Part shown: positions 1-13,551 of the stretch, piece after piece
Numbering within the stretch: position 1 is the first letter of the stretch
Layout of the letters: every line of letters starts with the position of its first letter
Assembly (NCBI GenBank): GCA_015234495.1
Contig: JADGMZ010000306.1
Location: forward strand, 1-13,551
Direction of reading: 5' to 3'
Length of the DNA stretch: 13,551 bases
Source: Brevundimonas sp.
GTDB lineage: Bacteria; Pseudomonadota; Alphaproteobacteria; Caulobacterales; Caulobacteraceae
The notes under the pieces: generated by a model
Databases searched by the model: none
Told to the model about the DNA's origin: nothing
Seen by the model: only the letters and a program-made list of their open reading frames with translations
Program-made: the position numbers and the translations under genes

Positions 1-1
1 G

Positions 2-364
2 GCGACCATCGGCATCGCCGAGCCGGGCTCTCGGCTCGAGGTCGTCTATCTGCGTGCCGTGCGCGAGGGCCGCGCGACCGTGGAGGTCGAGTCGCCGGGT
101 GACCGTTCCGTGGTTCTCGGCGCCGAGGTGGTGGCGGCGCGAGGTCTGAGCGCCCGGGCCGGTACCGACGGCCTTCAGGTGTTCGCGGTCGAAGGGGGAT
201 CTGTCGCCGCCGCTGCTGGACTGGAGGCGGGCGACCTCATCCGGCTGGTCGACGACACCCCGGTCCGGGGCCTGGACGATCTGGCCGAGGCCCTTGCCGG
301 CGACGGCCAGCGGATTCTCTCGCTGATGCGCGGCGGCGAACCGGTCGAGGTCATCCTGCCTTGA
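2..364 (+). CDS. HtrA/Deg-family serine protease, C-terminal PDZ part (5' partial)
   Basis: The frame is open to the left edge and stops at TGA 362-364, so only the last 120 residues are visible. The first ~30 residues (A-E-P-G-S-R-L-E-V-V-Y-L-R...) look like the end of a first PDZ domain, where Deg proteases have a 'PG-x-x-V-x-L-x-V-x-R-x-G' strand pair. The rest is a complete-looking second PDZ domain with the signature AAAAGLEAGDLIRLVDDTPV (about residues 63-82) and a final strand ending V-I-L-P. A protein ending with tandem PDZ domains fits periplasmic DegP/DegQ/Do-type endopeptidases, which degrade misfolded envelope proteins. The trypsin-like domain with His-Asp-Ser lies outside the window, so the protease call rests on the tandem PDZ layout only. 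Another PDZ protein, such as a type II secretion or RseP-like protein, is less likely. A hairpin follows 30 nt after the stop. Confidence 0.7.
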   Translation, partial: ATIGIAEPGSRLEVVYLRAVREGRATVEVESPGDRSVVLGAEVVAARGLSARAGTDGLQVFAVEGGSVAAAAGLEAGDLIRLVDDTPVRGLDDLAEALAGDGQRILSLMRGGEPVEVILP

Positions 365-394
365 CCCCGGCGCCGCCGGGCGCCGGACAGCAAA

Positions 395-436
395 ACGCCC
401 GCTCAGCCGGAGGGGGGAGGGTGGCGGAGCGGGCGT
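395..436 (+). terminator. Hairpin terminator after the HtrA-like gene
   Basis: A perfect 10-bp inverted repeat, ACGCCCGCTC (395-404) and GAGCGGGCGT (427-436), encloses a 22-nt purine-rich loop. It is preceded by AAAA and followed by TCTCGCTT. It lies 30 nt past the stop codon of the upstream gene. The T-run is poor, which is common in high-GC genomes. Nearly the same arms recur in the hairpin at 11605-11636, suggesting a favoured terminator sequence in this genome. Confidence 0.6.
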
Positions 437-706
437 CTCGCTTGGAGGAAGCATCGACCCGCCGGAGCCCTTGAATGGAGTGATCCAGGGGGGCTGGGGG
501 GGCTGTTCAGGATCCGGGATCGCTCCGGGCCCCGACGAGCCGATGGGTCTGGTGTCGCCCCCCAAGGGGGCGGACGATGGGCGGAACCGCGGCTATTTCG
601 TGTTCCGGGCGATTTCTTCGGCGAGTGGCGTTCGAAGCACGCGGATCGACCGCGCGAACCCGCCGCCGGGACTGGCCTTTCCCGCCTATCCGCCTACGAT
701 CGGGCC
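437..706. other. Intergenic stretch without a convincing gene
   Basis: This is the remainder of the ~340-bp gap between the HtrA-like gene and the DUF2794 gene. Short frames cross it on the plus strand, but they are Gly/Pro/Arg-rich, start without a Shine-Dalgarno, and either overlap or run into the DUF2794 gene in another frame, so I do not call them. Visible structure is limited to G-runs at 488-493 and 496-502 and a 7-bp hairpin CGCCCCC/GGGGGCG (556-562 and 566-572). The promoter of the downstream gene is presumably here, but I cannot assign -35/-10 boxes. No tRNA T-loop or cloverleaf was found. Confidence 0.5.
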
Positions 707-1039
707 ATGAGCGACGCCGCCGATTTGCAGTCCGCGCCCGGTCCGGTCTTCTTCGACCGGCGCGAGCTGGACCTGATCCTGAGGGTCTACGGACGGATGG
801 TGGCGGCAGGCGAGTGGCGCGACTACGCCATGGCCGGACATCGCGACGTCGCCGAGTTCGCCGTCTTCCGCCGCTCGGGCGACGCGCCCCTCTATCGCAT
901 CGAGAAACGCCCCGCCCTGCGCCTCAAACAGGGCCAGTGGGCGGTCATCGGCGAGGGCGGGATGGTGCTGCGCCGCGGCCGGGATCTGGCCCAGGTGCTG
1001 CGCGTCTTCGACAGCCGCCGCTTCACCGTCGTCGAATAG
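707..1039 (+). CDS. DUF2794 domain-containing protein
   Basis: The product is 110 residues and matches the DUF2794 family over almost its whole length. From memory of that family, the diagnostic blocks are FFDRRELDLILRVYGRMVAA (residues 15-34), the following GEWRDYAM, the central FRRSGDAPLYRIEKRPALR segment, and the C-terminal WAVIGEGG plus LRRGRDLAQVLRVFDSR. The family is small, soluble and largely alphaproteobacterial, and its function is not established to my knowledge. No signal peptide or membrane segment is visible, so the protein is probably cytoplasmic. The ATG at 707 has no clear Shine-Dalgarno. It is kept because the family similarity begins soon after it and the first residues (MSDAADLQSAP) look like a normal variable N-terminus. 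The gene is monocistronic, ending 2 nt before a strong hairpin. Confidence 0.85.
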   Translation: MSDAADLQSAPGPVFFDRRELDLILRVYGRMVAAGEWRDYAMAGHRDVAEFAVFRRSGDAPLYRIEKRPALRLKQGQWAVIGEGGMVLRRGRDLAQVLRVFDSRRFTVVE

Positions 1040-1041
1040 AA

Positions 1042-1071
1042 AAGGGCCCCGGCGTCTCCGCCGGGGCCCTT
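1042..1071 (+). terminator. Strong GC hairpin terminator of the DUF2794 gene
   Basis: A perfect 13-bp stem, AAGGGCCCCGGCG (1042-1054) with CGCCGGGGCCCTT (1059-1071), has a TCTC tetraloop and begins 2 nt after the TAG stop. The arm ends in TT and is followed by a weak pyrimidine/T tail. Because the stem carries AA and TT ends it could act in both directions, also limiting readthrough from the convergent BI-1 gene. Confidence 0.8.
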
Positions 1072-1121
1072 CAGGTCTGGCCTGCCGCCCTTCGGGCTGT
1101 TTGAGGCCATCGCGCCCAGCA

Positions 1122-1142
1122 GGTCGGGACCGCGTCCCGACC
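1122..1142 (-). terminator. Hairpin just downstream of the BI-1 gene
   Basis: A perfect 9-bp stem GGTCGGGAC/GTCCCGACC with a 3-nt loop lies 12 nt beyond the BI-1 stop codon on the minus strand. There is no T-run, so it may be a terminator that relies on another factor, or a 3'-end stabilising hairpin. With the 1042-1071 hairpin it fills the gap between two convergent genes. Confidence 0.55.
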
Positions 1143-1154
1143 GTTAGCGCCTCA

Positions 1155-1916
1155 TCAACGCCGGCCGCCGAACAGCATCAGCAGGAACTGGAACATGTTG
1201 ATGAAGCTGATGTACAGGCTCAGCGCGCCGTAGCTGGTCGCCACGCTCATCGCCGTCTGGTTCCCGCCCAGGGCGTAGTAGGTCATCTTCAACCGCTGGG
1301 TGTCGTAGGCGGTCAGGCCCGCGAAGATCAGCACGCCGGCGATGCTGATGATCATCTGCATCATTGAGCTTTGCAGGAACATGTTGACCACCATGGCGAT
1401 GATCAGGCCGATCACCCCCATGATCAGGAAGCTGCCGATGCCCGACAGGTCCTTCTTCGTCGTGTAGCCGAACAGGCTCAGCGCGCCGAAGGCCGCGGCG
1501 GTGATCAGGAAGGTCTGGATCACCGAGGCGCCGGTGTAGACCAGAACCACCGTGCCCATCGAGGCGCCGATCAGGGCCACGATCAGCCAGTACAGCGCGC
1601 TCGCGCCGCCGGCGGTCGGGTTCTTCATCACGAAGTTCGATCCGAGGATCAGCACCAGCGGCGAGAAGGCCACGATCATGCCCAGCAGGGTGAAGCCGGT
1701 CAGGCGCTCGACCCCGTCAGGGAAGACCTGGGTGGCGAACATCAGATCGCGGACCGGCGGATAGGAGCCGGTCAACCAGGCGAGGGCGGCCGAAACCAGC
1801 AGGCCCAGCGCCACCTTGTTGTAGACGCCCAGCATGAAGCTGCGCAGACCCGTGTCGACCGACATGTCGGCGGACTGGGGAAGCGGCCGGGCGTAGCCGT
1901 TGTTGAAGTCGCTCAT
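1155..1916 (-). CDS. Bax inhibitor-1/YccA family membrane protein
   Basis: The product is 253 residues with about seven hydrophobic segments (roughly 30-50, 72-92, 104-126, 129-151, 160-182, 187-204, 228-250), the BI-1/TMBIM layout. Two conserved family spots are present. One is Y-T-T-K-K-D-L-S-G (151-159) after the fourth segment. The other is G-L-T-A-Y-D-T-Q-R-L-K (200-210), whose Asp (D205) belongs to the acidic pair linked to the pH-dependent Ca2+ leak in the bacterial member BsYetJ. Other bacterial relatives (E. coli YccA) modulate the FtsH protease. Either role would be at the inner membrane, and the sequence does not decide between them. The start at 1916 is supported by AAGGAG (1929-1934 on the complement), 12 nt upstream, a slightly long spacing. 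The gene stands alone, divergent from thpR across a 127-bp spacer that must hold both promoters. Confidence 0.92.
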   Translation of the reverse strand: MSDFNNGYARPLPQSADMSVDTGLRSFMLGVYNKVALGLLVSAALAWLTGSYPPVRDLMFATQVFPDGVERLTGFTLLGMIVAFSPLVLILGSNFVMKNPTAGGASALYWLIVALIGASMGTVVLVYTGASVIQTFLITAAAFGALSLFGYTTKKDLSGIGSFLIMGVIGLIIAMVVNMFLQSSMMQMIISIAGVLIFAGLTAYDTQRLKMTYYALGGNQTAMSVATSYGALSLYISFINMFQFLLMLFGGRR

Positions 1917-2043
1917 CGCGAGTTCGTTCTCCTTGTGCGCCGGGGATCAATCCCGGCCTTGGGCCAAATATCGGGGTCGCACAGGCTGGACGCAAGGAAA
2001 ACCGGACTTGGGCGGTCGGGTTTCACCCGCTACGAACGGTCGC

Positions 2044-2583
2044 ATGATCCGGCTGTTCACCGCCCTGTCGATGCCCGACGACGTCGCCGATGTCCTGGAG
2101 CGGCGTCAGTCCGGCCTGCCCGGCGCGAAATGGCGATCGCGCGAACAATTGCACCTGACGCTGGCCTTCTACGGCGAGATCGAGGAACGGCGCGCAGACG
2201 ACCTGGCGGCCGAGCTCGGCCGCGCCGCCTCGGGCGGACCGTTCGAGATCGCCCTGCAGGGGGTCGGGGCCTTCGGCGACAATCACCGCAGCCACACCCT
2301 GTGGGCCGGGGTCGAGGCCAACGACCGGCTGTCGGTGCTGGCCGGCCGCTGCCGCGCCGCCGGCGAGCGCGCGGGCGTGGTCATGGAGCGCCGCGACTAT
2401 CGCCCGCACGTGACCCTCGCCTATCTCAAGCCGCAGACCAATCCGGATCGCATCGGCGCCTGGATCGCGGGCCACAACCTGCTGCGTTCGCCGCCGATCC
2501 GGGTCGACCGTTTCGGCCTGTGGTCCAGTGTCCTGACCCAGGATGGCAGCCACTACCAACTGGAGCAGGAGTACTGGCTTTGA
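2044..2583 (+). CDS. thpR: RNA 2',3'-cyclic phosphodiesterase (2'-5' RNA ligase family)
   Basis: The product is 179 residues, normal for ThpR/LigT. Both HxTx motifs of the 2H phosphoesterase superfamily are present: H37-L-T39-L within QLHLTLAFYG, and H122-V-T124-L within PHVTLAYLK. The two histidines form the active site. Family members hydrolyse 2',3'-cyclic phosphate RNA ends to 2'-phosphate and show reversible 2'-5' RNA ligation in vitro. The cellular role is still uncertain. The frame is open well upstream (to 1900), but ATG 2044 is chosen because M-I-R-L-F-T-A-L is the typical family N-terminus and the upstream extension overlaps the BI-1 gene start. The Shine-Dalgarno is poor. The stop (TGA 2581-2583) overlaps the TTG start of the acetyltransferase gene. 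Confidence 0.9.
   Translation: MIRLFTALSMPDDVADVLERRQSGLPGAKWRSREQLHLTLAFYGEIEERRADDLAAELGRAASGGPFEIALQGVGAFGDNHRSHTLWAGVEANDRLSVLAGRCRAAGERAGVVMERRDYRPHVTLAYLKPQTNPDRIGAWIAGHNLLRSPPIRVDRFGLWSSVLTQDGSHYQLEQEYWL
2567..2571 (+). promoter_or_regulatory. Shine-Dalgarno that fixes the TTG start of the GNAT gene
   Basis: AGGAG lies inside the 3' end of thpR, 8 nt before TTG 2580. No ATG exists near the start of the acetyltransferase frame, and the first recognisable family residues (I-E-T-A-R-L-T-L-R) begin five codons later. The combination supports TTG as the initiator, with translation coupled to thpR. Confidence 0.65.
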
Positions 2584-3119
2584 CCGCACCCGTGATCGAG
2601 ACCGCCCGGCTGACGCTGCGCCCGCCGGCGATGGAGGACTTCCCCCGCTGGGTGGAACTGATGGGGCACCCCGAGGCCTCCAAATTCATCGGCGGGCCGA
2701 TGCCCCCCGAGACCGCCTGGCGGGGCTTCATGACCATGGCCGGGGCGTGGAGCCTGACCGGCGTCGGCATGTTCTCGCTGATCGAGCGCGACAGCGGCCT
2801 GTGGCTGGGCCGGATCGGGCCTTGGACGCCGCTGGGCTGGCCGGGAACCGAGGTCGGCTGGGGCCTGCACCCGGACGCCCAGGGCAAGGGCTACGGCGTC
2901 GAGGCGGCGACGGCGGCCATCGACTACGCCTTCAACGTTCTGGGCTGGACCGAGGTCATCCACTGCATCGATCCGGACAACACGCCGTCGCAGCGGCTGG
3001 CCGAGCGGCTGGGCTCGCGCAACCTCGGCCCGACCCGCCTGCCGCCGCCGTTCGACGCCCTGGCGATCGATCGCTGGGGCCAGTCCCGCGAGCAGTGGCG
3101 CGCTCGCCGCGGATCGTGA
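2580..3119 (+). CDS. GNAT family N-acetyltransferase (RimJ/RimL-like)
   Basis: The product is 179 residues, read from TTG 2580 and overlapping the thpR stop as TTGA. It opens with I-E-T-A-R-L-T-L-R-P (6-15), typical of the Acetyltransf_3/RimJ-RimL group. It has the beta-strand before motif A (E91-V-G-W-G-L) and the acetyl-CoA pyrophosphate loop Q101-G-K-G-Y-G106 followed by the alpha-3 helix E-A-A-T-A-A-I-D-Y-A-F. Motif B carries the family signature N134-x-x-S-x-R-L-A-E-R-L-G (134-145). Such enzymes transfer acetyl from acetyl-CoA to an amine, either a protein N-terminus or a small molecule. The substrate cannot be read from this sequence. A GTG at 2592 is an alternative start but would remove part of the first conserved strand. 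Confidence 0.88.
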   Translation: MTAPVIETARLTLRPPAMEDFPRWVELMGHPEASKFIGGPMPPETAWRGFMTMAGAWSLTGVGMFSLIERDSGLWLGRIGPWTPLGWPGTEVGWGLHPDAQGKGYGVEAATAAIDYAFNVLGWTEVIHCIDPDNTPSQRLAERLGSRNLGPTRLPPPFDALAIDRWGQSREQWRARRGS

Positions 3120-3194
3120 ACCCGTGCGACCGTTTCGCGCGTTTCATGCTCAAGCTTTGCCCCGCCGTCGCCATCGGCTAGGCAGGAAGCAGTC

Positions 3195-4442
3195 ATGACG
3201 AGGAATGGACGGATGCGGGTTCTGGTTCTGGGCGGCGACGGATTCTGCGGCTGGCCGACGGCCTTGCACCTGTCCGCGCAGGGCTGGGAGGTCCTGATCG
3301 TCGACAACCTGAGCCGGCGCAACATCGACAACGAGCTGGAAGTCCAGTCCCTGACCCCGATCCGGACCATGGGCGAGCGCATCGCCGCATGGAAGGAGGT
3401 CTCGGGCAAGACCATCGAGTTCGTCAACATGACGGTCGGCAAGGAGTTCGACCGCCTCGTGGCCCTGATCCGCGAATGGAAGCCGGACAGCGTGGTCCAC
3501 TTCGCCGAACAGCGCGCCGCGCCCTATTCGATGAAGTCGGCGCGGCACAAGCTGTACACGGTGGACAACAACCTGAACGCCACCAACCACCTGCTGGCGG
3601 CGATCGTGGAGAGCGGGCTGGACGTGCACCTGGCCCACCTCGGGACCATGGGCGTCTATGGTTACACCACCGCCGGGCTGCGCATCCCGGAGGGGTATCT
3701 GAAGGTCACGGTCGACACCGACCTGGGGCCGACCGAGCAGGAGATCCTGTTCCCGCCCAACCCGGGCTCGATCTACCACATGACCAAGACCCAGGACGCC
3801 CTGCTGTTCCAGTTCTACGCCAAGAACGACGGCGTCCGGATCACCGACCTGCACCAGGGCATCGTCTGGGGCGCCCAGACCGAGGAGACCCGCCAGGACG
3901 AGCGGCTGATCAACCGCTTCGACTATGACGGCGACTACGGCACGGTGCTGAACCGCTTCCTGATGCAGGCTGCGGTGGGCTATCCGCTGACGGTCCACGG
4001 CACGGGCGGGCAAACGCGGGCCTTCATCCACATCCAGGACACGGTGCGCTGCGTCGAACTGGCCCTGAAACACCCGCCCAGGGCCGGCGAACGGGTCAAG
4101 ATTCTCAATCAGATGACCGAGAGCCGGCGGGTGCGCGACCTCGCCGCCCTGATCGCCGGCATGACCGGCGCCGAGGTCCACAACGTCCCCAACCCCCGGC
4201 TGGAAGCCGACGAGAACGAACTGGTCGTCGCCAACGACCAGTTCCGCGAACTGGGCCTGAAGCCGATCACCCTCGCCGAGGGTCTGATGCAGGACGTCAC
4301 CGAGGTGGCGCGCCGCTACGCCCACCGCGCCGACCTGACCAAGGTGCCCTGCGTGTCCAGCTGGAACAGCAAGCGGGCCGAGGCCCTGAAGGACGACGCC
4401 GTCGTCGTCGCCCCCTCCCCCGCCCACGCCCGCTCGGCCTGA
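3195..4442 (+). CDS. sqdB: NAD-dependent epimerase/dehydratase, SqdB/SQD1-like (UDP-sulfoquinovose synthase family)
   Basis: The product is 415 residues and an extended SDR. The dinucleotide loop is G13-G-D-G-F-C-G19-W. The block V-V-H102-F-A-E-Q-R-A-A-P-Y-S-M113 closely matches plant SQD1 as I remember it (HFGEQRSAPYSM). The proposed catalytic trio is T151 (L-G-T-M-G), Y194 and K198 (Y-H-M-T-K). Further SQD1-like blocks are D-L-H-Q-G-I-V-W-G, the L-N-R-F-x-x-Q-A-A-V-G-x-P-L-T-V stretch, G-G-Q-T-R-A, and V-P-N-P-R-L-E-A-D-E. SqdB/SQD1 converts UDP-glucose plus sulfite to UDP-sulfoquinovose, the head-group donor of the sulfolipid SQDG. No sqdC, sqdD or sqdX partner is in the window, so exact chemistry is inferred. 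ATG 3195 has AGGAAG 5 nt upstream. ATG 3213 (also with AGGAA upstream) would give 409 residues and start closer to the Rossmann strand. The next gene, an SDR, begins 10 nt after the stop. Confidence 0.82.
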   Translation: MTRNGRMRVLVLGGDGFCGWPTALHLSAQGWEVLIVDNLSRRNIDNELEVQSLTPIRTMGERIAAWKEVSGKTIEFVNMTVGKEFDRLVALIREWKPDSVVHFAEQRAAPYSMKSARHKLYTVDNNLNATNHLLAAIVESGLDVHLAHLGTMGVYGYTTAGLRIPEGYLKVTVDTDLGPTEQEILFPPNPGSIYHMTKTQDALLFQFYAKNDGVRITDLHQGIVWGAQTEETRQDERLINRFDYDGDYGTVLNRFLMQAAVGYPLTVHGTGGQTRAFIHIQDTVRCVELALKHPPRAGERVKILNQMTESRRVRDLAALIAGMTGAEVHNVPNPRLEADENELVVANDQFRELGLKPITLAEGLMQDVTEVARRYAHRADLTKVPCVSSWNSKRAEALKDDAVVVAPSPAHARSA

Positions 4443-4452
4443 CCGCGCCGGC

Positions 4453-5349
4453 ATGAAGACCGGCGGCGCGCAATCTGACCCGCTCCCGAGGTTGCTGGTC
4501 TTCGGCGGCGGCTGGCTGGGGAAGGCGGCCGCGCGCGAGGCGGTCCGCCGCGGCGGCGCGGCGGCGCTGACCAGCCGCGACCCGGGACGCCGGGCGGCCC
4601 TGACGACGGACGGCTTCGAGGCCATGGATCCTGACGATCCGGCTGCGCTGGACGCCGCCGTCGCCGACGCCACGGCCCTGCTCGTCACCGCCCCGCCCGA
4701 GAGTGACGGCTGCCCGGGCCTGAAGCGCCTTCTCCCCGCCCTGACCCGCACCGGCGCCTTTCCCGACTGGATCGGCTACGTCTCCTCGACCGCCGTCTAC
4801 GGCGACCGAGCCGGCGGCTGGGCCTTCGAGGACGACCCGCTCCACGCCGCCTCGCTGGAGGGCGCCCGCCGGGTCCGGGCCGAGCGCGACTGGCTGGACG
4901 CCGGGCGCGGCATGGGGCTGACGGTGCAGATTTTCCGCCTGCCCGCCCTGTACGGCCCCGGCCGCTCGCCGATCGACCGCATTCGCGACGGCACGGCCCG
5001 CATCGTCCGCAAGCCCGGACAGGTGTTCAACCGCATCCATGTGGACGACGCCGTCGCCGGCCTGTTCGCCTCCATGGCCCGGCCGCACCCGGGTCGCGCC
5101 TACACCCTGTGCGACGACGAGCCCGCCCCCGCCGACCTGGTCATGGAAGGCGCCGCCCGCCGTCTGGGCCTGCCGCGCCCGCCCGAGGTCGATCTGGACG
5201 ACCCATCGGTGTCCGACGCCATGCGGCGCTTCTATCTGGACTCCAAACGCCTCTCGAACGCCCGCGCCAAGGCCGAACTGGGCTGGCGGCCGCGCTATCC
5301 GACGTGGCGCGAAGGGCTGGAGGCGATGCTCGCCGACGCCGATACATAG
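4453..5349 (+). CDS. Atypical SDR family NAD(P)-dependent protein (YeeZ-like)
   Basis: The product is 298 residues. The N-terminal Rossmann loop is L-L-V-F-G18-G-G-W-L-G23, the G-x-G-W-L-G form I associate with E. coli YeeZ-like atypical SDRs. A strand ending Y-V-S-S-T-A-V-Y-G (109-117) is the usual SDR active-site strand. However, the Tyr is followed by G-D-R-A, so the canonical YxxxK Lys is absent and ordinary dehydrogenase chemistry is doubtful. Later blocks (F-R-L-P-A-L-Y-G-P-G-R-S, then N-R-I-H-V-D-D) are shared with extended SDR epimerases. The C-terminus A-K-A-E-L-G-W-R-P-R-Y-P-T-W-R-E-G-L is typical of sugar-nucleotide epimerases. It lies 10 nt behind the SqdB-like gene with no strong Shine-Dalgarno, so co-transcription is likely and a nucleotide-sugar substrate is plausible but unproven. 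Confidence 0.8.
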   Translation: MKTGGAQSDPLPRLLVFGGGWLGKAAAREAVRRGGAAALTSRDPGRRAALTTDGFEAMDPDDPAALDAAVADATALLVTAPPESDGCPGLKRLLPALTRTGAFPDWIGYVSSTAVYGDRAGGWAFEDDPLHAASLEGARRVRAERDWLDAGRGMGLTVQIFRLPALYGPGRSPIDRIRDGTARIVRKPGQVFNRIHVDDAVAGLFASMARPHPGRAYTLCDDEPAPADLVMEGAARRLGLPRPPEVDLDDPSVSDAMRRFYLDSKRLSNARAKAELGWRPRYPTWREGLEAMLADADT

Positions 5350-5445
5350 TCGACACCGGCCCAATACATTTCCGGCGATACATCCGTGACACTGGTGGCC
5401 GCGACAAGCGCGACATCCGGACAGGCGCGACATTGCCCCCCATCA

Positions 5446-5581
5446 CCGTCATCCTCGAGCTTGACCCGAGGCTCAGACGTGGGAGCGCCCTGTGCGTCTG
5501 AGATGGCCCGACGAGCGCGCCCGCGCCCCTGTCACCGAGCACCGGACGGTCTGATCCTCGGGTCGAGCCCGAGGATGACGG
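5446..5581. repeat. REP-like inverted repeat pair between convergent genes
   Basis: Two 33-nt arms, 5446-5478 and 5549-5581, are reverse complements of each other with only three mismatches. They share the core CCGTCATCCTCG ... GACCCGAGG ... TCAGAC and are separated by 70 bp. Each arm contains its own short palindrome: in the right arm CCTCGGG/CCCGAGG, in the left the shorter CCTCG/CGAGG. The inner end of the left arm also forms a second perfect 8-bp inverted repeat, CTCAGACG (5472-5479) with CGTCTGAG (5495-5502), so alternative folds are possible. Paired palindromes in an intergenic gap fit a bacterial interspersed mosaic/REP-type element. Lying between two converging genes, it could also end transcription from both sides. 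Copy number elsewhere in the genome is not visible here. Confidence 0.7.
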
Positions 5582-5599
5582 ATAGACCGGGGCGATCCC

Positions 5600-6211
5600 C
5601 TAGAACGGCAGGATGTTCCGCTGACGGCTGTAGGCCATGGTGCCCACATTGGCGCCCAGCCGCAGGCCGACGCCGGTGCGGATCGGGGCCAGCACGATGC
5701 CCTCGGCGCTCTGGTAGTTCACCCCCAGCCCGCCGACCAGATAGGCCGACCCCTCCACGCCGGGGTAGCGGCGGTAGATCATGTCGGGGTGGTAGAGGCC
5801 GTACACCAGGGTGAACACCCGGCTGGCGTTGCCGCCGACGTCCCAGCCGATCGAGATGCCCTGCCAGAACACCTCCTGCGAGGCCGACAGGTCCTTCATG
5901 TGCAGGGCGCCGCGGCCGTAGCGCGCCCCCACGGCCAAGGCTCCCGCGGCTTCCTCGCCGGCGATGTAGGCGGTCGGCCGGTCGCCCTGGTCGGCGAAGA
6001 TGCGCTCGATGGCCCCGCCGATGGCCTCGGCGGCGATGCCCAGCTCGCGCGAGCCGGCGGCGATCAGCTCGTCGGCGGTATAGGCCTGGGCCTGCTGGTC
6101 CGACCGGATCGGATAGTTCGGATTGGCCGGAGGGTTGGTGGCGCAGGCCGACAGGCCGGAGGCCCCGGCGGTGGCGGCGAGACCGGAAAGGATCAGCTGA
6201 CGGCGGTGCAT
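5600..6211 (-). CDS. DUF1134 (EipA-like) envelope lipoprotein
   Basis: The product is 203 residues. The body matches DUF1134, the family of Brucella EipA, a periplasmic protein tied to envelope integrity. Conserved blocks are Y-I-A-G-E-E-A (82-88), W-Q-G-I-S-I-G-W-D-V-G (116-126), G-S-A-Y-L-V-G-G-L-G-V (154-164) and L-A-P-I-R-T-G-V-G-L-R-L-G-A-N-V-G (174-190), ending N-I-L-P-F. The N-terminus is MHRRQLILSG, a hydrophobic stretch, then lipobox L20-S-A-C23, so the mature protein should be lipidated at Cys23. The Arg3-Arg4 pair before Q-L-I-L resembles a Tat signal. With Ala at +2 the E. coli Lol rule predicts outer-membrane sorting. ATG 6211 is chosen over the longer frame (to 6268) because it puts the signal peptide at the terminus and has GGAG 8 nt upstream (complement of 6220-6223). 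The gene converges on the SDR gene. Confidence 0.88.
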   Translation of the reverse strand: MHRRQLILSGLAATAGASGLSACATNPPANPNYPIRSDQQAQAYTADELIAAGSRELGIAAEAIGGAIERIFADQGDRPTAYIAGEEAAGALAVGARYGRGALHMKDLSASQEVFWQGISIGWDVGGNASRVFTLVYGLYHPDMIYRRYPGVEGSAYLVGGLGVNYQSAEGIVLAPIRTGVGLRLGANVGTMAYSRQRNILPF

Positions 6212-6339
6212 GGCGATGGCTCCGAAGGCGCGGGACGGTCCGCCCGACTCGCGCGGGCGCTGGCTCACACCGTCTCCGGTCTTTGAGTCAGCCTTGCGGC
6301 GGCGAGGTTAACGAGAGGTTGCGGCGGCCCAGCGGCGGC
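6212..6339. other. Spacer upstream of the DUF1134 gene
   Basis: This 128-bp gap lies between the stop of the UPF0114 gene and the start of the DUF1134 gene, both on the minus strand. It should hold the DUF1134 promoter if that gene is transcribed separately. A 10-bp direct repeat TTGCGGCGGC occurs at 6294-6303 and 6319-6328, with GTTAAC between the copies. No convincing -35/-10 pair or terminator hairpin was identified. Confidence 0.4.
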
Positions 6340-6888
6340 TCAGTGTTTATCGGTCTTGGCCGCGATCCAGTCCATCGCCGCCAGCAACACGCCCGAACCG
6401 ACGAATGTGAGGTGGATGATCACCGCCCATTTCAGCGCCGCCTCGTCCAGCGGATAGCCGGGCTTGCCGATGTTCATGAAGCTCTTCAGCAGGTAGATCG
6501 CCGAGATCGCCACGATGGAGGCGATCAGCTTCATCTTCAGGCCCGAGAAGTCGACCGTGCCCATCCACGGCGGCCGGTCGACGTGGTTCTCGTCGAGATC
6601 CAGCTTGGAGACGAAATTCTCGTAGCCGGAATAGAGCACGATCAACAGCAGGTTGCCGGCCAGCGACAGGTCGACCAGGCTCAGGATCGCCAGGATCGCC
6701 GTGTCCGAACCCATGTGGCCCTCGCCGACCATGAAGGCCTGCGGCACGTAGTAAACCAGTTCGCGCACGAAGACGGCGAGCAGCATGACCAGCGCCGCCA
6801 CCAGGCCCAGGTAGAAGGGGGCCATCAGCCAGCGCGCGCGGAACAGGCTCCGCTCGAAGGCGGTCTCCGCCCAGGGTTTCCGGCTCAT
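6340..6888 (-). CDS. UPF0114/TIGR00645 (YqhA-like) inner-membrane protein
   Basis: The product is 182 residues with four hydrophobic segments, about 20-42, 63-87, 120-138 and 153-173. The family pattern is clear: R-x-L-F-x-x-R-W-L-M-A-P-F-Y-L-G-L near the N-terminus, L-S-L-V-D-L-S-L-A-G-N-L-L-L-I-V, S-G-Y-E-N-F-V-S, and M-K-L-I-A-S-I-V-A-I-S-A-I-Y-L-L. The molecular function of this widespread family is not established. The ATG at 6888 comes 1 nt after the pheT stop (TGAGATG), and its Shine-Dalgarno GAGGAG (complement of 6894-6899) lies inside the last pheT codons, so translation is probably coupled to pheT. It is the last gene of the pheS-led operon, with a 128-bp gap after it. Confidence 0.9.
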   Translation of the reverse strand: MSRKPWAETAFERSLFRARWLMAPFYLGLVAALVMLLAVFVRELVYYVPQAFMVGEGHMGSDTAILAILSLVDLSLAGNLLLIVLYSGYENFVSKLDLDENHVDRPPWMGTVDFSGLKMKLIASIVAISAIYLLKSFMNIGKPGYPLDEAALKWAVIIHLTFVGSGVLLAAMDWIAAKTDKH

Positions 6889-6889
6889 C

Positions 6890-9313
6890 TCAGCTCCTCA
6901 GCGTCGCGCCGGCCTTGCCCGCCGCCTGCACGATCTTGCCCGACAGCGCCTCGATCTCGGCCTCGGTCAGGGTCGCCTCGCGCGGCTGGACGACGACTTC
7001 CAGCGCCACCGACTTCATGCCCTCGGCCACGCCGGGGCCTTGGTAGACGTCGAACACCCTCACCTCGGCGATCAGCGCCTTGTCGGCCCCGGCCACGGCG
7101 CGGACGAGGTCGCCCGTCGGCTTGCCGTCCTCGACCACGAAGGCGAAGTCGCGGGTCAGCGGCATCAGCGCCGACAGATTGGCGGCGCCCCGCGCCTTGG
7201 TCGCCTTGCCGCGCGGCTCGGGCACGGCGTCCAGCACCATCTCGAAGGCCAGCATCGGACCATCGGCGTCGAGCGCCTTGAGCACCCGCGGGTGCAGGGC
7301 GCCGAACTCGGCCATGACGTTCTTCGGGCCGAGCTGCAGCCGGGCCGATCGGCCCGGGTGCCACCAGTCGCGGTTCTGGCCCTGGACCAGCTGCAGCGAG
7401 GCGACCGGGGCGCCCAGCTCTTCCAGCAGGGCCAGCAGGTCGCCCTTCAGGGCGAACAGGGCGTCCTCCGGAGCGGCGCCCCAGTGACGGGCGGAGCGCG
7501 GGGCGACGAGGCCGGCGACGACCGTGCGCTGGCCGGTCGGACTGTCGTCCAGATAGATGGGGCCGATCTCGAACAGGGCTGCGTCGGGATGGCCGCGGTC
7601 GGCGTTGCGCGCCGCCGCCTGGATCAGGTTGGGCAGGGCCGAGGGCCGCATGCAGTCGAGGTCGGCGGCGATCGGATTGTCGACCACCAGCCGTTCGGCG
7701 CCGCCGCCGAACAGGGCTGCGGTCGATCGTTTGGTGAAGGACCAGGTGACGGCTTCGGCGTAGCCCATGCCCGCCAGCGCCCGGCGGGCGGCGCGGACCC
7801 GGGCCTGCCGGGCGTTGAGCACGCCCTTCGACGGCGCGCCCAGCCCAGGCAGGGGCGTCGACGGCAGTTCGCCGTAACCCTCGATTCGCGCCACCTCCTC
7901 GACCAGGTCCGCCGGCCCCTCGACGTCGCGCCGCCACGACGGCGGGGTCACGCTCCACGGGGTTCCGCGCGCGACCTCGAAGCCCAGTCGGGTGAGGATT
8001 TCCGCAATCCGGTCCTCGTCCAGCGACAGGCCGGTCAGGGCGCCGACGCGGGCGGGATCGAAGGCGAAGGCCGAAGGATTGGCCGGGGCCTGGCCGGCCA
8101 CCACGACCTCCGACGGCTCGCCGCCGCACAGGTCGAGGATCAGTTTCGTCGCCAGCTCCAGGCCGGGGACCACGAAGGCCGGGTCGACGCCGCGGGCGAA
8201 GCGGTACTGGGCGTCGGAATTGATCGTCAGGGTCCGGCCCGTCTGGGCGGTGACCAGGGGATCGAACCAGGCGCTCTCGACGAAGACGTCGACGGTCTCG
8301 TCCGAACAGCCGGTGGATTCGCCGCCCATGACGCCGCCGAGGCCGATCGGGCGCTCGCCGGCCGCATCGGCGATGACGCAGACGCCGGGATCGGCGGCGT
8401 AGATCTTGCCGTCGAGGGCGATCAGCTGCTCGGGCGTGCCCGCCGCGATATGCTCCGCGCCCACGGACAGCTGGCCGCCGCGCACGACGATCTCGGAGCC
8501 GACCAGCTTGGCGGCGTCATAGACGTGCAGCGGCCGGCAGCGGTCGTAGGCGACCAGGTTGGTGACGTCGACCAGCCGGTTGATGGGGCGCAGGCCGATG
8601 GCGATCAGCCGCCGCTGCAGCCACTCCGGCGAGGGGCCGTTCTTCACGCCCCGGATCAGGCGGCCGGCGAACACCGGGCACATCCCTGGCGCCTCGATGC
8701 GGACGGCGATCGGCGACGGGAACATCCCGGGGACCGGCGTCACCGCCGGCGTCGTCAGCTGGCCCAGGCTGGCGGCCGCCAGATCGCGGGCGATGCCGGC
8801 CACGCCCAGCCAGTCAGCGCGGTTGGGGGTGACCTCGAAATCGATCACCGGCTCGGCCCCGAAGACGCCCGCCGCCGGCGCGCCGACCTCGAGATCGTCG
8901 TCCAGTTCGAGGATGCCGTCGCTGTCGTCGGCCAGCTCCAGCTCCGCGGCCGAACACAGCATGCCGTGCGAGACCACGCCGCGCACCGGCTTCTCGACCA
9001 GGGTCACGTCCAGCCCCGGCACATAGGCGCCGATGGGGGCGTAGATGGTGGTCAGGCCGGCCCGCGCGTTCGGGGCGCCGCAGACGATCTCCTTCATCCC
9101 GTCGACGGTGTCGACCTGGCAGACCTGCAGCCGGTCGGCGTCGGGATGGCGCGCGGCCGAAACGATCCTGGCCACGGTGAAGGGCGCCAGGGCCGCGATC
9201 GGGTCGTGGACCTCCTCGACCTCGAGACCGGCCATGGTCATGGCCTCGGCCACGGCGTCCACCCCGGCGTCCGTGTCGAGATGGTCCTTCAGCCAGGAGA
9301 GGGTGAATTTCAC
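6890..9313 (-). CDS. pheT: Phenylalanine--tRNA ligase beta subunit
   Basis: The product is 807 residues, full length for the bacterial beta subunit of the (alpha-beta)2 enzyme that charges tRNA-Phe. The N-terminus M-K-F-T-L-S-W-L-K is typical. An EMAP-like tRNA-binding OB domain follows (about 40-150, with H-P-x-A-D-R-L-Q-V-C and G-V-x-S-x-G-M-L-C-S). The B3/B4 editing region comes next (about 210-395). The B5 domain ends with the signature [20 protein letters not shown]. Then comes the catalytically dead class II-like core, and a C-terminal FDX-ACB anticodon-binding domain spans about 715-805. The start is GTG 9313, overlapping the upstream gene's stop as GTGA, with GGAG 8 nt before it. Unusually, two small genes lie between pheS and pheT. 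Confidence 0.97.
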
Positions 9314-9750
9314 GCCGACGGCTCCGACGCCGCGGCGAGCTCCGACAGCGACTTCAGACCCTGCAGCTCCTCCAGCAGGGCGTCGGACCCCGTGAAACCG
9401 ACCTGCACGAAGCGGCAGCGCACGAAGCGGCAGTTCTTCACCCCGACCAGCCCGGCCATCTTGTCCTGGCTGAGCGGGCGGTAGAGCAGGGTCCGCATGT
9501 CGCTGGTCGCGCCCATGGCGCAGCTGTCGAAGACGGTGCCGTTCATCACCGCCATCACCGCCGGGCCCTCGATGACGCAGTCGGTGAAGGTCTTGCCGTC
9601 GATGGCCATCTGGCCCGCGTTCCAGTGATGCACGGCCAGCTGCGGCAGCCAGACGGCTTCCCTCTCGAAGCTGGTGCGGGCCACCAGGGCGCGGCCGGCG
9701 GCTTCCTCGGGCGACATCTCGCCGGTCGGGGCGGAGGTTTCGTCAGTCAT
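9310..9750 (-). CDS. Uncharacterised small protein B (pentapeptide-like, paralogue of A)
   Basis: The product is 146 residues. I do not recognise a named family. A charged N-terminal region (1-50, with the aromatic patch A-V-H-H-W) precedes a core that closely repeats protein A: T54[12 protein letters not shown]66, R91-P-L-S-Q95, and V104[10 protein letters not shown]114. In the last block bulky residues recur every five positions in an N-C-x-F-x-x-C-x-F pattern, as in pentapeptide-repeat or other right-handed beta-solenoid proteins. The array is short and imperfect. A likely helical tail follows (about 123-141). There is no signal peptide or membrane segment, so it is presumably cytoplasmic. 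The ATG at 9750 has a weak GAGAG upstream. Its TGA overlaps the GTG of pheT by 4 nt, so its translation should feed pheT. Function unknown; an accessory role for PheRS is only inferred from position. Confidence 0.8.
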
Positions 9751-9777
9751 GGTTCGTCTCTCGATCTGGATCTGGCG

Positions 9778-10173
9778 CTAGTCGACGGTGGTGACCTGGT
9801 CGACCAGCATCGTCAGCAGGCCCTCGCCGCCGGTGATCCCCAGCGTGTGGAACTGGCAGTTCCGAAAAGTGCAGTTGCGCACCGGAATGGCGCCGATCGC
9901 CATCTGCTGGCTCATCGGACGGAACAGCATGTTGCGCAGGTCGCCGCCGGTCGGGCCGAAATTGACGCTCTCGAAATGCACTCCCTCCAGCGCCAGCATC
10001 ACCGCCGGCCCCTCGATGAAGCAGTCGGTGAAGGTGCGGCCCTCGATGATCGCGCCGGCGCCGGACTGGATGTTGGCGCGGTAGAGGTCGAACAGGGCGA
10101 AATGGCCGCCGCTGATCTCGGTGGCGCGCGGGTCGATCTCGCGCGAGGTCGGGGTCGGGGTCGGGTCGATCAT
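9778..10173 (-). CDS. Uncharacterised small protein A (pentapeptide-like, paralogue of B)
   Basis: The product is 131 residues. The start ATG (10173-10171) shares one base with the pheS stop (TGATG), indicating termination-reinitiation coupling. After a T-P-T-P-T low-complexity N-terminus (residues 5-9), the core has E44-G-R-T-F-T-D-C-F-I-E-G-P-A-V-M59, R85-P-M-S-Q89, and V98-R-N-C-T-F-R-N-C-Q-F108. These blocks match protein B almost residue for residue (12 of 13 in the T-F-T-D-C block). The F/C/I spacing of about five residues resembles a short beta-solenoid. No known catalytic motif, signal or membrane segment is visible. A tandem duplication followed by divergence best explains the A/B pair. 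Function unknown. The longer upstream frame to 10560 overlaps pheS entirely and is ignored. Confidence 0.8.
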   Translation of the reverse strand: MIDPTPTPTSREIDPRATEISGGHFALFDLYRANIQSGAGAIIEGRTFTDCFIEGPAVMLALEGVHFESVNFGPTGGDLRNMLFRPMSQQMAIGAIPVRNCTFRNCQFHTLGITGGEGLLTMLVDQVTTVD

Positions 10174-11249
10174 CAGGACAGTCCGCTGGCGGGGTTGGGC
10201 GCGGCGAAGGCCGAGAACCCATAGTGGGCCAGCCACCGGGTGTCGGCCTCGAACATCGGGCGCAGGTCGGGGATGCCGTATTTCAGCATGGCCAGGCGAT
10301 CCACGCCCATGCCGAAGGCGAAGCCCTGGTATTCGTCGGGGTCGATGCCGCAGTTGCGCAGCACATTGGGGTGCACCATCCCGCAGCCGAGAATCTCCAT
10401 CCAGCTGTCGCCCTGGTTGAGCTTCAGCTCGCCGCCCGAACGGTCGCAGCGGATGTCCATCTCGGCCGACGGCTCGGTGAAGGGGAAATGGTGCGGCCGG
10501 AAGCGCGCGTCGACGTCCTCGACCTCGAAGAAGCGGGCGACGAAGGTCTCCAGCGTCCACTTCAGGTGACCCATGTGGATGGCCTTGTCGATCACCAGCC
10601 CCTCGACCTGGTGGAACATCGGCGTGTGGGTGGCGTCGCTGTCCTTTCGGAAGGTCCGGCCCGGGGCGATGATCCGGATCGGCGGCTTCTGGCTCATCAT
10701 CGTCCGCACCTGCACCGGGCTGGTGTGGGTGCGCAGCACCTTGCGCTCGCCCGTCTCCGGGTCGGGCCTGAGGAAGAAGGTGTCGTGGGTCTCCCGCGCC
10801 GGATGTTTCGGCGGGAAATTCAGGGCGGTGAAGTTGTGGAAGTCGTCCTCGATGTCGGGGCCTTCCGCCACCGCGAAGCCCATGTCGGCGAAGATGGCGA
10901 TCATCTCGTCCATCACCTGCATGGTCGGATGCACCGAGCCCTTGCGGCGCGGCCGCGACGGAAGGGTCAGGTCGATGTGCTCGGCCTTCAGCCGGGCGTC
11001 CAGCTCGGCTGCCTCCAGCTCGGCCTTCTTCGCCGCCAGCGCCGCCGACACCCGGTCGCGCAGGCCATTGATCATCGGCCCCTTCTCGCGCCGCTCCTCG
11101 GGGCTCATCGCCCCCATGCCCTTGAGCAGGCCGGAGATCGAGCCCGACTTGCCGAGGGCCGCGACGCGCAGCTCCTCGACGGCGGCCGCGGTCTCGGCGC
11201 CGCCAATGGCGTTGATCAGGTCGAGTTCGAGCTGGTTGAGGTCGGTCAT
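10173..11249 (-). CDS. pheS: Phenylalanine--tRNA ligase alpha subunit
   Basis: The product is 358 residues, normal for the bacterial alpha subunit, the catalytic half of PheRS. An N-terminal coiled-coil region (about 1-90) precedes the class II core. Motif 1 lies around [10 protein letters not shown]. Motif 2 is R198-T-F-R-K-D and following residues [13 protein letters not shown]. Motif 3 is F-G-M-G-V-D317-R318-L-A-M-L. The T-H-T-S-P-V-Q-V-R block is the usual substrate-site segment. The start at ATG 11249 gives the standard M-T-D-L-x-x-L-E N-terminus, but no strong Shine-Dalgarno is seen. It follows dodecin by 65 bp with an inverted repeat between them, so it may have its own promoter. The stop overlaps the next gene's ATG. 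Confidence 0.97.
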
Positions 11250-11280
11250 CGCCGCAGTCGTCTAGCGGGCCGCAGGGCTT

Positions 11281-11314
11281 TCGTCACCCCGCCCGCGCGA
11301 CGACGGCGTGACGA
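11281..11314 (-). terminator. Inverted repeat between dodecin and pheS
   Basis: TCGTCAC (11281-11287) and GTGACGA (11308-11314) form a perfect 7-bp stem around a 20-nt GC-rich loop directly after the dodecin stop codon. There is no T-run on the minus strand (AAG follows). It could be a weak terminator or a pheS leader element, and the sequence does not decide. Confidence 0.4.
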
Positions 11315-11518
11315 TCAGTCCTCGAGGACGAAGGTGACCTTCATATTGACCCGGTATTCGGCGATCTCGCCGTTGCGGACCACGACCTTCTGTTCCTGGA
11401 TCCAGGCCCCCTCGATCTTGTTCAGGGTCTTGTCGGCGCGGGCGATGCCCTGCTTCAGGGCGTCCTCGAAGCTGACGGTGGACGAGGCGGTGACTTCGGT
11501 GACCTTGGCGATGGACAT
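11315..11518 (-). CDS. Dodecin (flavin-binding)
   Basis: The product is 67 residues, the normal size for this tiny family. The pattern M-x-x-A-K-V-T-E-V-T-A-S-S, S-F-E-D-A (16-20), I-E-G-A-W39-I-Q, and the C-terminal strand Y-R-V-N-M-K-V-T-F-V-L-E identify dodecin. W39 corresponds to the Trp that stacks on flavin in characterised dodecins. The protein assembles into a hollow 12-mer that stores or buffers flavin in the cytoplasm. AGGA lies 9 nt before the ATG. It sits between rplT and pheS, downstream of a terminator hairpin (11605-11636), so it probably has its own promoter in the 11519-11604 stretch. This location inside a translation-gene block is unusual. Confidence 0.92.
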   Translation of the reverse strand: MSIAKVTEVTASSTVSFEDALKQGIARADKTLNKIEGAWIQEQKVVVRNGEIAEYRVNMKVTFVLED

Positions 11519-11604
11519 GGGGATTTTTCCTGACGATGCGACGGCCGCGGCTGCGGCAACGCTTGTTCAACGCCAAGGGGCCGGGCCGGTTGCCCCGAAA
11601 CGAC

Positions 11605-11636
11605 AACGCCCGCCCCGGCGGACCGGAGCGGGCGTT
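11605..11636 (-). terminator. Terminator hairpin after rplT
   Basis: Fourteen-nt arms, AACGCCCGCCCCGG (11605-11618) and CCGGAGCGGGCGTT (11623-11636), pair with a single mismatch around a CGGA loop, 24 nt beyond the rplT stop. On the minus strand the stem is followed by GTCGTTTC, a weak T tail. It should separate the rpmI-rplT transcript from dodecin and pheS. The arms resemble those at 395-436. Confidence 0.75.
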
Positions 11637-11659
11637 TCGAAATCACGATGGAGCGTGGC

Positions 11660-12013
11660 TTACGCCAGCGCGCCGCGGACCTTGTCGGCGATCGCCTTGA
11701 AGGCGGCTTCGTCGGCGGCCATGGCGGCGAGAACCTTGCGGTCCAGCTCGATGCCGGCCTTGCCCAGGCCGTGGATGAACTGGCTGTAGGTGAAGCCTTC
11801 CAGACGGGCGGCGGCGTTGATGCGCTGGATCCACAGGGCGCGGAAATTGCGCTTCTTGGTGCGGCGGTCGCGGTAGGCGTACTGCCCGGCGCGGTCGACC
11901 GCGGCCTTGGCGGTGCGGATGGTGTTCTTGCGGCGGCCGTAGAAGCCCTTGGCCTGCTTCAGGACCTTCTTGTGCTTGGCGTGGGACGTAACGCCCCGTT
12001 TGACGCGAGCCAT
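11660..12013 (-). CDS. rplT: 50S ribosomal protein L20
   Basis: The product is 117 residues, one short of the usual ~118. The signature N-terminal basic region [19 protein letters not shown] is present, followed by G-F-Y-G-R-R-K-N and [10 protein letters not shown], then the globular C-terminal domain that binds 23S rRNA helices 40-41. L20 is an early 50S assembly protein, and in several bacteria it represses its own operon by binding the mRNA leader. AGGGA lies about 8 nt before the ATG. It is separated from rpmI by a 111-bp spacer, longer than is common for this pair. Confidence 0.98.
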
Positions 12014-12124
12014 GATGTTTTTCCCTAAGGAAGGCCCCTATCGCTCGCGACGCGGTCGCTCGCTGCTTGAGGGGCTCAGTTCAAATTCAAATGCGGTTGA
12101 GGATTCAGGTCTGCGCTGCGCCGA
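12014..12124 (-). promoter_or_regulatory. Structured 111-bp rpmI-rplT spacer
   Basis: The gap holds a GCCCCT/AGGGGC pairing (12034-12039 with 12070-12075) and an 8-nt direct repeat TCGCTCGC (12041-12048 and 12056-12063). It also has an AT-rich patch with a repeated ATTCAAA-like word (12080-12093). Just before rplT, TTCC and GGAA can pair across the Shine-Dalgarno. It could be a site where L20 tunes its own translation, or a second promoter. Both are inference. Confidence 0.35.
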
Positions 12125-12322
12125 TCAGGCGTAGGGCATGTAGGACTTGATCTTCTTGGCGTCGGCGTCGGCCATGACCGAGGTGCCGCGGTTCTGGCGG
12201 ATGTATTTGCTGTTGTGGCTGATCAAGCGGTGCCGCTTGCCCGCCACGCCGGCCTTCACCTTGCCAGTCGCCGTGAATTTGAAGCGCTTCTTGGCGCCCG
12301 ACTTCGTCTTCAGTTTCGGCAT
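12125..12322 (-). CDS. rpmI: 50S ribosomal protein L35
   Basis: The product is 65 residues, normal for L35. The pattern [21 protein letters not shown] is diagnostic, followed by [11 protein letters not shown] and a short C-terminal tail. L35 is a small basic component of the 50S subunit. The start ATG 12322 is fixed by the family N-terminus. A GAGAG-type Shine-Dalgarno lies 5-6 nt upstream. It is the first gene of the rpmI-rplT pair here, because infC is not upstream. The preceding gene is an S9 peptidase, with a structured 158-bp gap between. Confidence 0.97.
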
Positions 12323-12342
12323 TTTCACTCTCTGTATTGAGC

Positions 12343-12384
12343 GGGCGATCGCCTGTCGGCTGCTTGAGCCCCCAGGAATCGCCC
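12343..12384 (-). promoter_or_regulatory. Extended hairpin in the rpmI leader
   Basis: On the rpmI mRNA strand, three consecutive helices stack into one long imperfect hairpin: GGGCGAT/ATCGCCC (7 bp), CCTG/CAGG (4 bp) and GGCT/AGCC (4 bp), closed by a 5-nt CAAGC loop. Small internal loops (T/CG and GG/GA) separate them. It ends about 20 nt before the rpmI start, so it could affect initiation. The 3' arm also contains a self-palindrome, GGCGATCGCC, which would compete with this fold. L20 autoregulation through the rpmI leader is known in E. coli and B. subtilis. Whether this is an L20 target is inferred from position. Confidence 0.5.
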
Positions 12385-12391
12385 TGATTGA

Positions 12392-12426
12392 GAACCGCCC
12401 AGGCATGCCTGTTCGCCCGGCGGTTC
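12392..12426 (-). terminator. Hairpin after the S9 peptidase gene / distal rpmI leader
   Basis: GAACCGCC (12392-12399) and GGCGGTTC (12419-12426) form an 8-bp stem. Inside it lies a 12-nt perfect palindrome CAGGCATGCCTG (12400-12411). There is no T-run. It could end transcription from the peptidase gene or form the 5' part of the rpmI leader. Confidence 0.45.
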
Positions 12427-12480
12427 GGTACGCGAAGGCGCGGCTTCTAGTCGAAGCGACGCCTGAAAGCAAGCGGCGGC

Positions 12481-13551
12481 CTAGCGCGGCGGGTTGTGCT
12501 CCTCGAGGAATTCGATGGTCTCGGTCAGCATCCGGCGGCGGGTGGCGGGGAAGGTCATGTGGTGATCCTCGCCGTCGAGGGCGACCAGTTCGACATCCTT
12601 GCCCGCGGCGCGCATGGCCCGCTCCATGATCTGGCTCTGCTCGAACGGGACGACGGTGTCCTCGCGTCCGTGGATCAGCAGGACCGGACCGTCGATACGG
12701 GTGGCCAGCTGCGCCGGCGACCGCTCGGCCAGGGTCGGGTCGTTGTCGGTGGTCACCCCCATGAAGCGCTGCCAGTAGCGCATGCCGCTGTTGAAGCGGG
12801 CCCGGCCGCCGTGACGGCGCTCGGAGGCGAGGAAGGCGGTCAGGTCCGAAACGCCCGACACCGCCACGGCGCAGCGATAGACGCCCTTGTCCAGCGTCAT
12901 CCCGGCCAGGGCCGCATAGCCGCCGTAGCTGGAGCCGACGATGCAGACGCGGGCGGGATCGACCACGCCGCGCTCGGCGAGGTAGCGGACGCCGTCCGAA
13001 AGGTCGCTCTGCATCTTGCGGCCCCACTCGCCGTATCCGGCTTCCAGCAGATCCATGCCGAAGCCGTCGGAGCCGCGGAACTGGGGCTGGAACACGGCGT
13101 ACCCCCGAGAGGCCAAGGCCTGGGCCTTGTAGTCGAAGCCGGTGAAGTCGCGCGCCGCCGGACCGCCGTGCGGCAGCAGGACCAGCGGCAGGTTGCGCGC
13201 CTCGCGGCCGTTCGGGGTGGTCAGATAGCCGATCAGCTCGCGTCCATCGGCGGCGGAGTAGGCGACCACGCTGACCTGGGACACGTCGGTCGGGGCCAGG
13301 TCCGGATACTCACGCCCGATCAGGTTGACGCTCTGGCGCTCGGCGTCGAACAGATAGATCGATCCGGGCTCCCCGGCGCCCTCGGCGCGGAACAGCAGCA
13401 CGCTCAGGTCGTCATCGGCGTCGGACAGATACAGCTGGCTGCCGGCCAGACCGAGCTGCAGCTTCTCCCAGTTGGCCTGCAACTCCTCGTCGAACAGGGT
13501 GTAGGACTGGGTCAGGCCCTGCCGACTGAGGCCGACAAGCAGCCCCTGCCC
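12481..13551 (-). CDS. S9 family (prolyl oligopeptidase-type) serine peptidase, 5' partial
   Basis: The visible part is the last 356 residues, and the frame continues off the right edge. The first ~100 residues are the end of a beta-propeller-like region. From about residue 115 the alpha/beta-hydrolase peptidase domain follows: [11 protein letters not shown], then the nucleophile motif G-S-S208-Y-G-G-Y, Asp298 in H-G-R-E-D-T-V-V-P, and His330 in G-E-D-H-H-M. This is the complete Ser-Asp-His set in the order and spacing of S9 peptidases (acylaminoacyl-peptidase/DPP-like S9C type). The enzyme cleaves short peptides. Location cannot be judged without the N-terminus. The stop is 158 bp before rpmI on the same strand. 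Confidence 0.93.

Follow-up and report, generated by a model that had tools for sequence, protein, structure and literature searches.

Paired Knotted Solenoid genes between pheS and pheT in Brevundimonas and their plausible link to phenylalanyl-tRNA synthetase

Within a stretch of 13,551 nucleotides from Brevundimonas sp. (GenBank assembly GCA_015234495.1, contig JADGMZ010000306.1, positions 1 to 13,551; hereafter the window), pheS and pheT, the genes for the two subunits of phenylalanyl-tRNA synthetase (PheRS), are separated by two small genes, A and B, which lie in tandem within the pheST operon and are translationally coupled. Both products almost certainly belong to the Knotted Solenoid (KS) family, three-sided beta-solenoids with a 3_1 (trefoil) knot that were described in PNAS in April 2026 (PDB 9QIX, 9RDS and 9SOJ; PMC13123833). 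Strongly matching KS genes of relatives remain in the pheS-pheT interval, where they duplicate, diverge into subfamilies and are sometimes deleted. Gene order ties a functionally blank knotted family to the operon of a single essential enzyme, which provides a testable lead on the function of the family, and a link to PheRS is plausible.

Gene order and family assignment

All four genes lie on the minus strand, in the order pheS (positions 10173-11249, alpha subunit, 358 amino acids), A (9778-10173, 131 amino acids), B (9310-9750, 146 amino acids) and pheT (6890-9313, beta subunit, 807 amino acids, GTG start), with a spacer of 27 nucleotides read from the A stop to the B start (9751-9777). Both PheRS subunits carry their usual Pfam domains: PheS matched PF01409 (E=4.3e-102) and PF02912 (E=5.2e-22), and PheT matched five domains, PF03483 (E=5.8e-56) among them: B3/4 (editing), B5, FDX-ACB, tRNA_bind and CLM. 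The pheS stop and the A start overlap by one nucleotide in TGATG, and the B stop and the pheT start by four in GTGA. An earlier note, made from the sequence of this DNA, had reported two small paralogous genes joined to the synthetase genes by these overlaps. Both junctions were read in the sequence, and the products of A and B are 48% identical across 81 amino acids (E=2e-26). The span given there, 9310..10175, located the genes but ran slightly too far, since 10173 is the first position of the A start codon and 10174-10175 belong only to the stop codon of pheS.

Using phmmer against the PDB, A matched 9qix (E=9e-23), 9soj (E=5.4e-22) and 9rds (E=1.1e-21), while B matched 9rds (E=4.2e-16), 9qix (E=6e-14) and 9soj (E=1.1e-13). 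A profile of 65 relatives matched the crystallised KS proteins at E=2.4e-47. The expectation in the earlier note that these are short beta-solenoid proteins agrees with these matches, and the family that it could not name can now be given. Published KS proteins are 100-160 amino acids long, have no extra domain and share a Phe with a Cys three residues later opening coils 2, 3 and 4, as well as a Gly-Pro where the knot core begins (PMC13123833). Both A and B fall within this length range and likewise have no extra domain. The motif is present in B as F55/C58, F74/C77 and F109/C112 with G62-P63, and in A as F48/C51 and F103/C106 with G55-P56; in coil 3 of A, F67 is followed by V70 instead of a Cys, and the motif was still counted as present.

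AlphaFold2 (AF2) models of A and B, with a predicted local distance difference test (pLDDT) of 84.1 and 88.4, respectively, give the element order published for KS, namely two strands with an outward helix, strands, a linker of about 25 residues, strands and a capping helix. A search with A gave no match at E≤0.001 in a PDB fold library whose entries run to 2026-04-08 and among which none of the three KS structures appeared. On the strength of the published crystal structures, each protein would fold as a trefoil-knotted, three-sided beta-solenoid and dimerise side by side via a hydrophobic face. The label of pentapeptide-like proteins that the pair had first received does not hold, as the match of both proteins to PF13576 is weak (E=0.008, 16.9 bits against a cut-off of 27) and neither is a plain pentapeptide repeat protein. 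That class includes the Qnr/MfpA-like gyrase protectors.

Two of the three crystallised KS proteins are themselves encoded between pheS and pheT, an observation that is new here. The 9SOJ protein is identical at 132 of 132 residues to the product of L157:4001-4396 in Brevundimonas sp. SH203; in that strain a second KS gene lies between pheS and the 9SOJ gene, which is followed by pheT. The 9RDS protein is likewise identical (132 of 132) to that of L161:4001-4396 in Brevundimonas sp. G8, with the order pheS, 9RDS, pheT. In the main text of the structural paper, term searches turned up no mention of operons, pheS, pheT, tRNA, synthetases, genomic context, neighbours, paralogues or heterodimers (PMC13123833).

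Distribution in Brevundimonas and beyond

The KS profile matched 122 of 131 Brevundimonas genomes. Gene order was examined in the window and in 130 pheS loci from 129 other genomes (pheS match at E≤1e-80, one genome having two), with G137 left out for want of a pheS match at that threshold. With pheT in view, 67 of these 131 loci contained one KS gene, 52 contained two and one contained three; the remainder comprise two KS genes on a contig that ends before pheT (G147), nine loci without KS and one contig that ends inside pheS (G093). Every KS gene in these loci is on the sense strand. One genome, G118, has two pheS-pheT loci (L053 and L117), one with KS and one empty, in an assembly with about 4% contamination that is probably mixed.

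Across 121 genomes, the count of KS genes in the interval agrees with the genome-wide count of matches, save at the second, empty locus of G118 and in G020 and G029, each of which has an additional weak match (E about 1e-5). The extra match in G020 is HalA according to NCBIfam (437 bits, cut-off 250), and that in G029 is a protein with N-terminal hydrophobic segments. A wider set of 199 Caulobacteraceae genomes included 64 with a match, made up of 40 Brevundimonas, 22 strong-match genomes from three other genera and two weak-only genomes, the latter encoding membrane-anchored KS-like proteins of Asticcacaulis. In all 22 strong-match genomes of the other genera, KS lies between pheS and pheT, and no strong KS gene was found outside this interval among the 143 genomes examined (121 and 22). 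The earlier note had considered that the pair might occur mostly away from pheS and pheT in related genomes, which is not the case in Brevundimonas or in the three other Caulobacteraceae genera with strong matches. Tabulating the interval across relatives, as that note had proposed, shows the location to be a conserved feature of Brevundimonas and some other Caulobacteraceae genera. Searches at the levels of order, class and phylum (120, 385 and 398 genomes), which had limited sensitivity, gave matches in Caulobacteraceae only and did not reproduce the 49% of KS proteins that the paper reports outside this family (PMC13123833).

Pairs and subfamilies

For proteins examined as homodimers, a partner is often encoded alongside, as 54 of the 121 KS loci hold two or three copies. 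When the KS tree was cut into 25 groups, taken as subfamilies, same-subfamily pairs occurred in none of these 54 loci; 20,000 shuffles gave a mean of 10.1, a minimum of 1 and never 0. Pair members are 26-46% identical. In all 18 loci where the group of A is present, its member comes first in a pair whose second gene is from the group of B; the group of B is also found alone or with other groups. Mapped on a tree of pheS and pheT (FastTree), the subfamily make-up changes 67 times over 129 loci. The absence of same-subfamily pairs favours a division of labour or hetero-oligomers. Two KS copies were also found in three genomes of a second genus, and because this genus is paired as well and its KS proteins group apart from those of Brevundimonas, the sequences indicate that pairing probably arose more than once.

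Selection and protein properties

The ratio of nonsynonymous to synonymous divergence (dN/dS) was calculated for 695 genome pairs sharing a subfamily, with pheS at least 86% identical and a pheS dS of 0.03-0.9; comparisons with dS outside 0.02-2 were left out. The median pairwise dN/dS of KS genes was 0.32 and the maximum 0.95 (867 comparisons), against medians of 0.12 for pheS (695 comparisons) and 0.21 for pheT (675 comparisons). In the compared pairs, median identity was 68% for KS, 93% for PheS and 84% for PheT. KS genes are thus kept as proteins under purifying selection, yet are changing fast. Because the same genes recur at the same place and on the sense strand in relatives, with dN/dS below 1, the frames of A and B are more than chance open reading frames.

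In 65 aligned sequences, the residues that are at least 90% identical are F, C, G, P, L and T only. Since these nearly invariant positions are fold residues only, catalysis seems unlikely, and the alignment points to binding or scaffold proteins instead of enzymes. The net charge of 176 KS proteins has a median of -4 and ranges from -9 to +1, a property that does not favour direct binding of tRNA or other RNA.

Junctions and other occupants of the interval

A 4-bp overlap between the stop codon of the final KS gene and the start codon of pheT is present in 99 of 120 loci (GTGA in 50, ATGA in 49), and the TGATG junction with pheS in 25 of 120. Where KS is missing from Brevundimonas, the gap between pheS and pheT is at most 10 bp in seven genomes and 52 bp in G116 (L155). 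The 52 bp of the latter include a frame of 14 codons that ends in a GTGA overlap with pheT and is possibly the scar of an internal KS deletion, seen in one draft genome.

Other genes also occupy this position. We compared 29 KS-less relatives (26 Caulobacteraceae and three from other families; one more had no pheS match). The gap is at most 58 bp in 13 of them and 112-183 bp in four, and pheT lies beyond the fetched DNA in two (G038 and G544); the remaining 10 have another, unrelated frame of at least 77 amino acids between pheS and pheT. The scanned foreign frames include an ASCH protein (E=2.5e-15), a GNAT acetyltransferase (E=3.2e-6) and an NAD-binding dehydrogenase (E=2.9e-35), and three of them matched no Pfam family. 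Start or stop overlaps were seen in several of the foreign frames (L225-L252). The pheS-pheT interval of Caulobacterales is, therefore, a recurrent insertion slot for small genes, and an interval within an essential operon can serve repeatedly as a site for small coupled genes.

Some KS loci contain a further gene. In three of the 120 Brevundimonas loci (L106, L069 and L120), pheT is separated from the final KS gene by a further 457-488 bp, which in L106 include a frame of 158 amino acids with no Pfam family above cut-off. In another genus, a cupin-like frame precedes KS at L178, L179 and L188 (PF07883 below cut-off, scanned for L179). Upstream of pheS in the window, between rplT (PF00453) and pheS, there is a dodecin gene (11315-11518, minus strand; PF07311, E=1.1e-23).

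Possible functions of the KS pair

The explanation that we tentatively prefer, while giving it somewhat less than an even chance as a whole, is that KS proteins are oligomeric, non-enzymatic accessories linked to PheRS. A and B would each be a separate kind of subunit in a single homo- or hetero-oligomer whose synthesis keeps pace with that of PheS and PheT, and the partner of this oligomer would be PheRS itself or something acting on it; the pair would serve as an accessory of PheRS (a regulator, stabiliser or shield) and not as a required subunit. Co-translated, dimeric, non-enzymatic binding proteins with PheRS or its agent as partner are the most likely reading, although it falls short of an even chance and a passenger role stands nearly level with it. 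Regarding its parts, we give the paralogues a little under an even chance of working as a hetero-oligomer, and the identification of the partner as PheRS or an agent acting on PheRS is slightly more doubtful still. The most specific version, in which KS is a Caulobacteraceae-specific PheRS accessory whose tandem paralogues form heteromeric knotted dimers that bind or shield the enzyme, is unlikely. If true, it would provide the first function for the knotted-solenoid fold and the first heteromeric knotted solenoid.

Several observations weigh against an accessory role at PheRS. KS proteins have diverged at a much higher rate than PheS and PheT, which would be unusual for proteins working closely with a conserved enzyme, and no conserved polar surface patch was evident in the KS alignments. 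Single purified KS proteins are homodimeric in crystals and in solution, with their function given as unknown (PMC13123833), and recombinational removal of near-identical tandem copies may also produce the absence of same-subfamily pairs. On the tree of pheS and pheT, KS presence requires nine changes for the nine absent loci. KS is absent from eight Brevundimonas genomes with a readable interval, where pheS and pheT lie at most 52 bp apart, so the obligate coupling of pheT to these genes that had been proposed earlier does not hold. Moreover, because unrelated frames fill the interval in 10 of the 29 KS-less relatives, position is a weak pointer to a function at PheRS. These last data suit a passenger in a permissive slot, in which KS was captured once and inherited vertically, with the operon ensuring steady translation and a role unrelated to PheRS, and would be no more than the slot's most successful occupant; we consider this a serious possibility at rather below an even chance. 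The ASCH, GNAT and dehydrogenase frames, as well as the cupin-like frames before KS and the frames of about 460-490 bp after it, are as expected of such a slot, and vertical inheritance alone would give a fixed position. It does not readily account for the lack of strong KS genes anywhere else in the 121 and 22 genomes despite repeated loss and duplication, and it is because of this restriction, over all 143 genomes, that the link to PheRS is still favoured.

A third explanation, which we regard as improbable, is that KS acts as a guard or decoy, binding an element directed against PheRS or translation, such as a phage protein, a toxin or an inhibitor. This would explain the fast change, with a dN/dS above those of pheS and pheT, as well as the turnover in copy number and the losses, and the N-terminal domain of the anti-phage protein HalA is among the nearest outside relatives of KS. 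Conversely, no dN/dS exceeds 1, no KS was found in plasmid and phage collections with B as query, PADLOC found nothing, and the likeness to HalA may reflect a shared solenoid repeat only (best domain i-E 0.17). It is very improbable that the DNA or its translation matters instead of the protein, with the frames acting as spacers that tune PheT against PheS translation, perhaps via Phe codons. The frequent 4-bp overlap with pheT and the median Phe content of KS (6.1%) are compatible with such spacers, but B of the window has only 4.1% Phe, relatives without KS have direct pheS-pheT junctions, the proteins are under purifying selection with nearly invariant fold residues, and the crystallised products are stably folded (PMC13123833). 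The placement of KS genes in the pheST operon turns the question of what a knotted solenoid does, and whether its knot contributes, into a short list of tests.

Comparison with known systems

HalA, the effector of the Hailong anti-phage system, shows remote similarity to KS in its N-terminal solenoid part. The HalA profile NF051894 was matched by 16 of 17 KS proteins (best E=9e-8, all far below cut-off where scored), profile-profile comparison gave a probability of 95.6%, and PDB entry 9nyi, 'HalA in complex with oligodeoxyadenylate', was a borderline match (E=0.0056). A common solenoid ancestor is possible, and a shared repeat pattern would be enough as an explanation. A and B themselves were rejected as HalA, scoring 19 and 12.8 bits where the cut-off is 250; unlike HalA, they have no C-terminal part and no nucleotidyltransferase neighbour. 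HalA genes were detected in Caulobacteraceae at L209:2619-3749 (plus strand) and L210:2315-3445 (minus strand), with 368 and 437 bits against the same cut-off. They adjoin frames that by eye resemble nucleotidyltransferases (HalB-like), representing Hailong systems in this family.

Membrane-anchored KS-like proteins (about 210-240 amino acids) occur in Asticcacaulis and relatives; in their C-terminal part they align with the KS profile (98.1% probability) and with 9rds (E=2.2e-5). They differ from KS in having N-terminal hydrophobic segments and unrelated gene neighbourhoods and in being rare (five proteins found). KS-like proteins of about 210-220 amino acids are encoded at L199:2742-3386 (minus strand), L201:2760-3422 (minus strand) and L211:2604-3236 (plus strand), and the gene at L201 stands among genes that look flagellar by eye.

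Pentapeptide repeat proteins (PF13576) share Phe/Cys-rich solenoid repeats with A and B, whereas KS solenoids are three-sided and knotted (PMC13123833). The crystallised Knotted Solenoid proteins are the closest comparison, agreeing with A and B in homology over nearly the full length, in size, in the FxxC and GP motifs and in the genus Brevundimonas. A departs from them in lacking the Cys of the FxxC in the third coil, and whereas the proteins in the paper are single proteins that form homodimers (PMC13123833), A and B are a pair from different subfamilies.

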